From Nitrospirales bacterium (lineage in GTDB: Bacteria > Nitrospirota > Nitrospiria > Nitrospirales > UBA8639), in assembly GCA_029261295.1 (NCBI GenBank), contig JAJDBP010000002.1, forward strand, positions 124,001 to 188,000: a DNA stretch of 64,000 nucleotides. Direction: 5' to 3'. The position numbers were made by a program, and so were the translations under genes. The notes below the pieces were generated by a model that searched no databases, was not told where the DNA came from, and worked only from the letters and a program-made list of their open reading frames with translations. Below, piece by piece: positions 43,455 through 45,310 of the stretch (position 1 is its first letter; each line of letters opens with the position of its first letter).

Positions 43455-43961
43455 CTAATTTGAAATGGAGGATTGAATAGAGTTGGCTATTTGGTGTGGG
43501 GAAACTTGGTCGGTTGGGATGATTTGGTCAGCGGCAGCCTGGTATTTAGGTGTGCGCTCTTTGAGAATGTCTTCGATTTCTTCCACAAAGGATTTAGTGC
43601 CTGAGAGTGAGGGTCGTTGTGTGTCACCGGAGATTCGTTTCACGATAGTAGGTATCTCAGCAGTTAACCAAAAGATTGTGCTATTGGCTTTCAAGAAGTT
43701 CACATTTTCTTCCTTCAGAATGAGCCCGCCTCCGGTATCGATGATCAAGTCGGTTTGATCCTGAAGTTTCTGACACATCTGTGTTTCTAGCTTTCGAAAA
43801 TGATCCCAGCCATGCTGCTCGACAATTTGGGGGATTGTTTGCCCTGCCTCATGGACGATCTCCGAGTCTGTCGACATGACTTTCCGCCCTAACCATTGCC
43901 CTAGGATTTTTGCCACGGTACTTTTCCCAGTGCCTCTGTAGCCGATGAGAACAATGTTCAT
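43455..43961 (-). CDS. aroK: Shikimate kinase
   Basis: The 168-residue protein has Walker A in IGYRGTGKSTVAKILG, the shikimate-binding STDSEIVHEAGQTI region, WDHFRKLETQ, TGGGLILKE and a lid containing RPSLSG. It phosphorylates shikimate in aromatic amino acid synthesis. The start at 43961 was chosen over an upstream ATG at 44021, because the family begins at MNIVLIG and this start overlaps the aroE stop by four bases (ATGA). The neighbour aroE catalyses the preceding step. Confidence 0.95.
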   Translation of the reverse strand: MNIVLIGYRGTGKSTVAKILGQWLGRKVMSTDSEIVHEAGQTIPQIVEQHGWDHFRKLETQMCQKLQDQTDLIIDTGGGLILKEENVNFLKANSTIFWLTAEIPTIVKRISGDTQRPSLSGTKSFVEEIEDILKERTPKYQAAADQIIPTDQVSPHQIANSIQSSISN

Positions 43962-44812
43962 GAGAAGTGGGTGGTGAGGATGTTGCGCATGGTGTCGATG
44001 GGTGCCGGTTGGCCAGTCCAAAGTTCAAATTGTCCAACCGCTTGATGCAAAAACATTTCGATACCCTGGATGGTGGGGCATCCGGCTGCCTTCGCATCTT
44101 GAAGTAATTGGGTATTGAGCGGGTTATAAACAATATCCATCACGGTTAATCCCGGGTGGAACAATTTTTTGGGGACGCAACTGGCTTCGATTTTTGGATG
44201 CATGCCGATCGGTGTACAGTGAATGAGTAACTGTGCGTCGGCTAATGCTGGACCTAATGTTGATTCATTTAAGGAATTGGCGGTAATAGAGACGCCAGTT
44301 TTTGTTCGGAGATCTTCGGCAAGGATTTGTCGTTCCTGGTCATCGATCCCTAGCAGGGTCAGATTTCCAATGTTTCCTTCCACGCAGAGGCCAAAGGCCA
44401 CGGCTCGAGCGGCTCCTCCGGAACCCAGCATGACCACTCGTTGATTGACAAGATCAACACCTCCTTGCCGCAAAGCTTGAAGTGCTCCAGAGGCATCCGT
44501 ATTTGAACCAACCAGAATCCCCCGGTCTTTGATGATGGTGTTGACTGACCCGATGTGTTTTGCGGTGGTCTCGACAGAATCCAACAGTGACATGATGGAC
44601 ACTTTATGGGGAATGGTCACGCTAAACCCACGTATGTGTCCTAATGCCCGGATACCTTCAATGGCGTTTTCAAGATCTTCAACCGGGAAGGCAAGATACG
44701 CGAAATTTAATCCCAATTTTTCAAAAGCCGCATTATGGATGGCCGGAGAAAGGGAATGATCAACCGGGTTTCCCAATAGGCCACAGAGTTGTGTCTGTGC
44801 TGTGATTGCCAT
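43958..44812 (-). CDS. aroE: Shikimate dehydrogenase
   Basis: The 284-residue protein has the expected blocks: LLGNPVDHSLSPAIHNAAF (substrate Ser pair), GFSVTIPHKVSIM with the catalytic Lys, SNTDASGALQAL with the catalytic Asp, VMLGSGGAARAVAFGL for NADP binding, and the C-terminal GIEMFLHQAVGQFELWTG. It reduces 3-dehydroshikimate to shikimate with NADPH. AAGGA five bases before the ATG supports the start. It overlaps aroK by four bases. Confidence 0.96.
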   Translation of the reverse strand: MAITAQTQLCGLLGNPVDHSLSPAIHNAAFEKLGLNFAYLAFPVEDLENAIEGIRALGHIRGFSVTIPHKVSIMSLLDSVETTAKHIGSVNTIIKDRGILVGSNTDASGALQALRQGGVDLVNQRVVMLGSGGAARAVAFGLCVEGNIGNLTLLGIDDQERQILAEDLRTKTGVSITANSLNESTLGPALADAQLLIHCTPIGMHPKIEASCVPKKLFHPGLTVMDIVYNPLNTQLLQDAKAAGCPTIQGIEMFLHQAVGQFELWTGQPAPIDTMRNILTTHFS

Positions 44813-44995
44813 GCTGTTCCTTACTGGTTTGACGTGCCGTAATGCTCAGCCAACGTTATCACATAACAGAGGCTCGAAATTCAACCGATTGGTCTTGATG
44901 TCATGAATTGAATGATAGTGCTGTAGAGGACAGAAATGGGGAAAAGGGGAATTGCGAAGATCAGGAAGGTGTATTCCGGAGAGCAGTCACCTACT

Positions 44996-45025
44996 CCCCG
45001 GATTTACACTTGATAACGTCCGGGG
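44996..45025 (-). terminator. Possible terminator hairpin after the small lysine-rich gene
   Basis: CCCCGGA (44996-45002) pairs with TCCGGGG (45019-45025) around a 16-base loop. Read on the minus strand the hairpin begins four bases after the stop of the 28-residue gene. No run of T follows, so it may be a transcript-stabilising hairpin rather than a classical terminator. Confidence 0.45.
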
Positions 45026-45028
45026 AAG

Positions 45029-45115
45029 CTATCGTGACGTTTTTTTCTTTGTCGTAGCTTTCTTCATACGAACTGCTGCTTTTTTTACTGGTTTCTTTTT
45101 GGCGACTTTTGCCAT
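45029..45115 (-). CDS. Lysine-rich 28-residue protein
   Basis: The short frame encodes 28 residues: 11 Lys, 2 Arg and no acidic residue, with the repeated AKKKPVKKA-type pattern seen in the C-terminal tails of histone H1-like proteins. Translation is strongly supported by TAAGGAGGTGATC, two bases before the ATG. It could bind DNA, RNA or ribosomes; no known family is claimed. It is a stand-alone gene between aroE and a sensor kinase. Confidence 0.7.
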   Translation of the reverse strand: MAKVAKKKPVKKAAVRMKKATTKKKTSR

Positions 45116-45117
45116 GC

Positions 45118-45130
45118 GATCACCTCCTTA
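45118..45130 (-). promoter_or_regulatory. Exceptionally strong ribosome binding site
   Basis: On the minus strand TAAGGAGGTGATC is complementary over 13 bases to the conserved 3' end of 16S rRNA (GATCACCTCCTTA), and is followed after two bases by the ATG of the 28-residue protein. Such an extended match is rare and suggests very efficient translation, though very long pairing can also slow initiation. Confidence 0.8.
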
Positions 45131-45310
45131 AAAATAAATGAGTAAGCAATTCTATTCACGTTTATCGGCACGCCTGTAAAAATCATGAGTCATTTCGGGA
45201 AATTTTTGCCGGGTGCTTGAAGGCAGCTCGGCAGAAATGGCCGAGGAGAAAAGTTTCTCCAGGCTTTCTCGAGTTGTCACGACACGGAAAATAAGAGGGG
45301 AAGGCCAGGC

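Follow-up and report, generated by a model that had tools for sequence, protein, structure and literature searches.

A conserved, lysine-rich 28-residue peptide in one Nitrospirales family, with a predicted sigma28-type promoter

Introduction

Among the tiny basic proteins of bacteria, bTHX is an abundant component of the ribosome. HctB, the histone H1-like protein of Chlamydia, is also strongly basic but is much longer and is built from repeats. In Chlamydia trachomatis, sigma28 binds only two promoters, one of which is that of hctB (PMC12282069), so that expression of a polycation by a sigma28-family factor has a precedent in Chlamydia. In E. coli, the class 3 flagellar and chemotaxis promoters are recognized by FliA, and 34 FliA-bound sites have been described (PMC4183435).

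Here we describe a 28-codon reading frame from a Nitrospirales bacterium that resembles each of these systems in part. It lies in a window of 64 kb (the whole stretch of DNA that was analyzed). The predicted peptide has the length, the charge, and probably the abundance of bTHX and similar small basic ribosomal proteins, but it has no match to a PDB chain at E <= 10 or to Pfam and is confined to one bacterial family. Like HctB, it is strongly basic and is apparently under the control of a sigma28-family factor; however, it is from another phylum, it is far shorter, and it is a predicted polycation with no match in Pfam or NCBIfam. We tested for homology to HctB and found none, and we view the resemblance as an analogy, in which the logic is shared. 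The peptide's putative promoter has the same -10 element (GCCGATAA), 11-nt spacer, and T1 and A3 of the -35 element as the E. coli class 3 promoters, but differs from them at -35 positions 4 and 6. Also, in contrast to the E. coli FliA regulon, the position of the gene is nonflagellar, and the likely sigma factor is an orphan paralog. The features of the locus, in window coordinates, are as follows.

45181..45188, minus strand: putative -35 element TCATGATT, with an 11-nt spacer to the -10 element downstream; T1 and A3 are invariant across seven genera
45162..45169, minus strand: putative -10 element GCCGATAA of the sigma28/FliA type; CCGATA is invariant in 28 of 28 members
45118..45130, minus strand: extended Shine-Dalgarno sequence TAAGGAGGTGATC, with a predicted pairing energy of -18.7 kcal/mol
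45029..45115, minus strand: 28-codon open reading frame MAKVAKKKPVKKAAVRMKKATTKKKTSR, from ATG to TAG, supported by orthologs and by its pN/pS ratio
44968..45010, minus strand: terminator-like hairpin after the stop codon, with a 12-bp inner stem plus GTGTA/TACAC and with no T-run here
44855..44887, minus strand: putative aroE promoter GGTTGAATTT...TTATGTGATAAC, situated after the hairpin and before aroE and conserved in the downstream alignment
43958..44812, minus strand: aroE (shikimate dehydrogenase), the conserved downstream neighbor, outside the peptide unit

A short reading frame under purifying selection

The 28 residues of MAKVAKKKPVKKAAVRMKKATTKKKTSR include 11 lysines, 2 arginines, and no aspartate or glutamate, which gives a net charge of about +13 and agrees with the first-pass annotation's description of a lysine-rich frame with 13 basic and no acidic residues. 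That annotation also supposed that gene callers had missed the frame. This is plausible because Prodigal's minimum gene length is 90 nt and the frame, including its stop codon, is 87 nt long. A conserved and probably highly translated protein would then be unannotated merely by falling three bases below a length cutoff.

Conservation in close relatives had been proposed as the check on this frame, and we found that it is kept, in synteny and under purifying selection, across seven genera. This supports the first-pass reading, which did not include the predicted sigma28-type promoter, the terminator-like hairpin, or the likely connection to a sigma factor that are described below. When we used the 28-residue peptide as a query against 97 genomes, 25 had stop-free matches, and the matches from the same genus and from genus g5 cover all 28 residues. 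A profile search found the peptide in 27 of the 48 genomes of one Nitrospirales family, and inspecting the region upstream of aroE added one more (genome G025), for a total of 28 members. These have 27 to 31 codons and represent genera g1, g3, g5, g6, g7, g8, and g9. A scan with aroE as the query gave us named carriers, including the metagenome-assembled genomes (MAGs) OFTM334, OFTM76, SZUA-312, Dino_bin26, and 8_1_Oct_SF_Bin74, as well as ERR2094167_bin.119. A contig scan with the single protein pattern KKKP[AVG]KKA returned no relatives; the peptide is probably too short for tblastn at E 1e-3. Outside the family, the peptide was not found in any sampled genome (395 Nitrospirota genomes were searched).

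Wherever the contig includes aroE, the peptide gene is upstream of it and on the same strand. The preceding gene encodes a histidine kinase in most genera and a FadL-like outer-membrane protein in part of g5. Three genomes of the same genus that lack the peptide (G010, G011, and G014) are missing aroE as well, so gaps in these drafts account for its absence. Genera g2, g4, and g10 contain aroE with no peptide frame upstream.

Across 20 distinct 28-codon sequences, pN/pS was 0.24, with pS above pN in each of the 190 pairs. Variation was seen at second codon positions in 8 of 28 columns, as compared to 25 of 28 for third positions. Nine columns were invariant in all 21 aligned members, namely, the start methionine and eight lysines or arginines. 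Length changes among the orthologs are all in frame and keep the gene near 28 codons.

We also considered whether the locus might encode a functional small RNA with an incidental frame, or whether the frame might be a chance one of low complexity. Its short length and structured 3' end would suit a small RNA, but the excess of pS in every pair reflects codon-level selection, and every member has a length near 28 codons, in-frame changes only, and a Shine-Dalgarno sequence. These explanations have a negligible probability: we rejected both a functional RNA alone and a chance low-complexity frame because of the codon-level selection and the synteny. The pattern of substitution and conservation indicates that the frame is almost certainly a real, unannotated gene.

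Translation signals

The 3' end of TAAGGAGGTGATC is 2 bases from the ATG. Its 13 bases were originally described as fully matching the 3' end of the 16S rRNA. Because a 16S gene could be read neither in this assembly nor in those of five relatives, the perfect match is one to the generic bacterial sequence GGATCACCTCCTTA and not to the host's own 16S 3' end; pairing with GGATCACCTCCTTA stops at the next base (G). TAAGGAGGTGATC is the sole exact copy within the window. Its 12-base core occurs once in the 4.06-Mb assembly, where we estimate that about 0.5 copies would be expected at random, and the 13-mer with one mismatch allowed occurs at six places in the assembly.

Only three members (G001, G005, and G006) have 12 or 13 pairs, and G007 has 11; the remaining members have 9 to 11 contiguous pairs, sometimes with one G-U pair. 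The predicted energy of pairing with the generic anti-Shine-Dalgarno sequence is -15.1 to -18.7 kcal/mol in 28 of 28 members, and the best of the 46 other long reading frames in the window, with the best start allowed for each, reaches -13.0 kcal/mol. Thus, a strong Shine-Dalgarno sequence is a trait of the family, and the 13-base form is that of the window's clade; we rejected the 13-base form as a conserved device, as only the strong pairing is kept. We also rejected an rRNA-like fragment on the plus strand, where GATCACCTCCTTA resembles the 3' end of 16S: only the Shine-Dalgarno sequence is common to both, Rfam identifies no rRNA in the window, and the Shine-Dalgarno sequence accompanies the reading frame in every member. 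As the first-pass annotation suspected, the peptide is probably abundant, judging from this family-wide signal and the conserved promoter.

A predicted sigma28-type promoter

When the upstream regions of the 28 members were right-aligned, CCGATA was found 42 to 56 nt before the ATG in all of them. Relative to a TAAAG-like -35 element, T1 and A3 are invariant, and most members also have G5 and the exact 11-nt spacing. Genus-weighted information reaches 2.0 bits only at CCGATA, T(-20), and A(-18), with 1.74 bits at A(-15), and these conserved positions are those of the FliA promoter layout, TAAAGTTT-N11-GCCGATAA.

We then scored these regions with a FliA matrix that was built from the E. coli sites alone (PMC4183435), with no input from the Nitrospirales lineage. 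Across both strands of the window, the top-scoring site was 45188-45161 on the minus strand, with 17.6 bits. For 27 of the 28 family promoters, no more than 1 of 200 shuffles scored at least as high; the promoter of G025 is weak (7.0 bits, matched by 6 of 200 shuffles). The g5 promoters are compatible with two overlapping registers. As a positive control, flagellin promoters from the same genomes mostly scored 10 to 23, and the regions on the aroE side scored 4.8 or less. It is very probable, from this agreement with an independent matrix, that the peptide's promoter is of the sigma28/FliA class.

Within the organism's own genome, the pattern TCANG-N16-CGATAA has 15 sites, versus 2 for the reversed pattern, and the majority are inside genes. 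If the sites of flagellin and the peptide are set aside, the intergenic site that stands out most (L159; G000:C11:4009-4035) precedes a 230-codon OmpA-like reading frame by about 80 nt, which makes this frame a possible third sigma28-type target. Separately, an imperfect inverted repeat at 45177-45207 of the window and in the orthologous regions overlaps the -35 element of the peptide's promoter and could be an operator. The repeat is clearer in the orthologs: AATTCC...GGATTT in g1 and TTCCTA...TAGGAA in g5.

The transcription unit

All 28 members have a hairpin 3' of the stop codon (z of -1.6 to -6.5), which is accompanied by a T-run in most orthologs from g5 and g8. Between the hairpin and aroE, most members retain a promoter-like element (GTTGAGTTT...TTATGTGATAACT). 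Given the hairpin and a separate putative aroE promoter beyond it, the peptide gene is most simply a stand-alone transcription unit; it looks monocistronic, with transcript ends that are predicted.

Alternatively, the frame might be a leader peptide whose lysine-rich translation sets the folding of an attenuator hairpin for aroE. A short frame with a strong Shine-Dalgarno sequence and hairpins just 5' of a biosynthetic gene would fit, and the g1 sequence does allow two mutually exclusive hairpin pairings. However, in g5 and g8 there is only one terminator-like hairpin, usually together with a T-run; the conserved putative aroE promoter is downstream of the hairpin; and the distance between the peptide gene and aroE is not constant (about 200 to more than 400 nt). 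Furthermore, aroE is involved in aromatic biosynthesis, not in that of lysine, and the conserved residues include some other than lysine. We consider attenuation to be very unlikely.

Which sigma factor?

If the peptide is expressed from a sigma28-type promoter as a stand-alone unit, then the sigma factor could be FliA itself. The peptide would then be a protein of the flagellar regulon with a role in motility, such as an mRNA-binding or assembly-timing factor. Its promoter matches FliA sites as well as the flagellin promoters do, and its presence by genus equals that of flagellin (agreement in 10 of 10 genera). However, genome G026 retains the peptide and its promoter without FliA or flagellin, while G028 has FliA without the peptide; the -35 element is TnAnGA for the peptide and TCAAGT for flagellin; and the peptide gene is not near flagellar genes. 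We therefore view a flagellar role as improbable.

The better candidate is an orphan FliA/WhiG-like sigma factor, which is present in G026 and absent from G028. All seven genera with the peptide have it, and g2, g4, and g10 do not, so it tracks the peptide at the genus level; the exception is G017 (a draft that is 83% complete), in which the peptide is present and we could find no orphan sigma factor. Every peptide-bearing genome contains FliA, the orphan paralog, or both, and the presence of the peptide fits the orphan better than it fits flagellin. The same three genera, which may be related, lack flagellin, the orphan sigma factor, and the peptide alike, so that one or two shared losses could yield the association between the sigma factor and the peptide.

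The region of the orphan around RIRGxMLDEIRAMDWVPRS is similar to that of FliA, and the C-terminal recognition segment is TESG[VI]CRVH in the orphan versus TESRICQLH in FliA. We infer that these sequences would fit a shared -10 element and an altered -35 element. The region upstream of the orphan's own gene yielded no strong FliA-type site. The orphan's gene (L147:5926-6843; G000:C22:108942-109856) is convergent with a cell-wall hydrolase gene (PF07486), and the orphan is conserved across seven genera. We also noticed that the flagellin leaders (the upstream regions of L128-L146) share a short, conserved hairpin (CCTCAAGGGACGGATCCTTTGAGG) whose loop contains ACGGAT and which recalls the CsrA-type binding sites near flagellin mRNAs.

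Proposed function and significance

The AlphaFold model of the peptide is featureless (pLDDT of 64), with no predicted fold, and we found no relative of the peptide in Pfam, NCBIfam, or PDB. A comparison of 19 members to Pfam and NCBIfam gave nothing but one chance-level match to an unrelated DUF (E of 9.9). Going by composition alone, the peptide most plausibly binds nucleic acid, as the first-pass annotation suggested.

The main rival to a nucleic-acid-coating peptide is a ribosome-associated one, that is, a highly made, lineage-specific small basic subunit or a hibernation-type protein, similar to bTHX in function. The size, the charge, the lack of a fold, and the near-maximal Shine-Dalgarno sequence would all be suitable, and the invariant positions are lysines and arginines. 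But the peptide has no sequence kinship with solved chains or with Pfam or NCBIfam families, a sigma28-type promoter would be unusual for a constitutive ribosomal gene, and the peptide was not found in g2 or g4, whose ribosomes must do without it. A ribosomal role is unlikely, if less so than the other alternatives to nucleic acid coating that are considered above.

Our preferred reading is that the peptide coats nucleic acid. RNA polymerase with a sigma28-family sigma factor, more likely the orphan FliA/WhiG-like factor beside the cell-wall hydrolase than the flagellar FliA, would initiate at TCATGATT-N11-GCCGATAA. The short leader and the near-maximal Shine-Dalgarno sequence would lead to efficient translation of the 28-residue polycation, and the transcript would terminate at the hairpin, before aroE. 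The peptide would then coat nucleic acid (DNA in the nucleoid, or rRNA) in a cell state that is switched on by the sigma28-family factor. We give this mechanism as a whole, including nucleic acid binding, a probability of roughly 55%, with the identity of the sigma factor, the transcript ends, the abundance, and the binding as its predicted parts.

Should the peptide bind DNA or ribosomes, few proteins with such a role would be smaller, and it could be made synthetically for study. Its promoter is the best candidate target of the orphan sigma28-family regulator and may provide a handle on that regulator in Nitrospirales. More tentatively, and by analogy, these peptides may form a new protein family of the Nitrospirales in which a disordered polycation is one of the main products controlled by an orphan sigma28-family regulator and remodels the nucleoid or silences ribosomes in a particular state. 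This would be an independent counterpart, in free-living bacteria, of sigma28 and HctB in Chlamydia.
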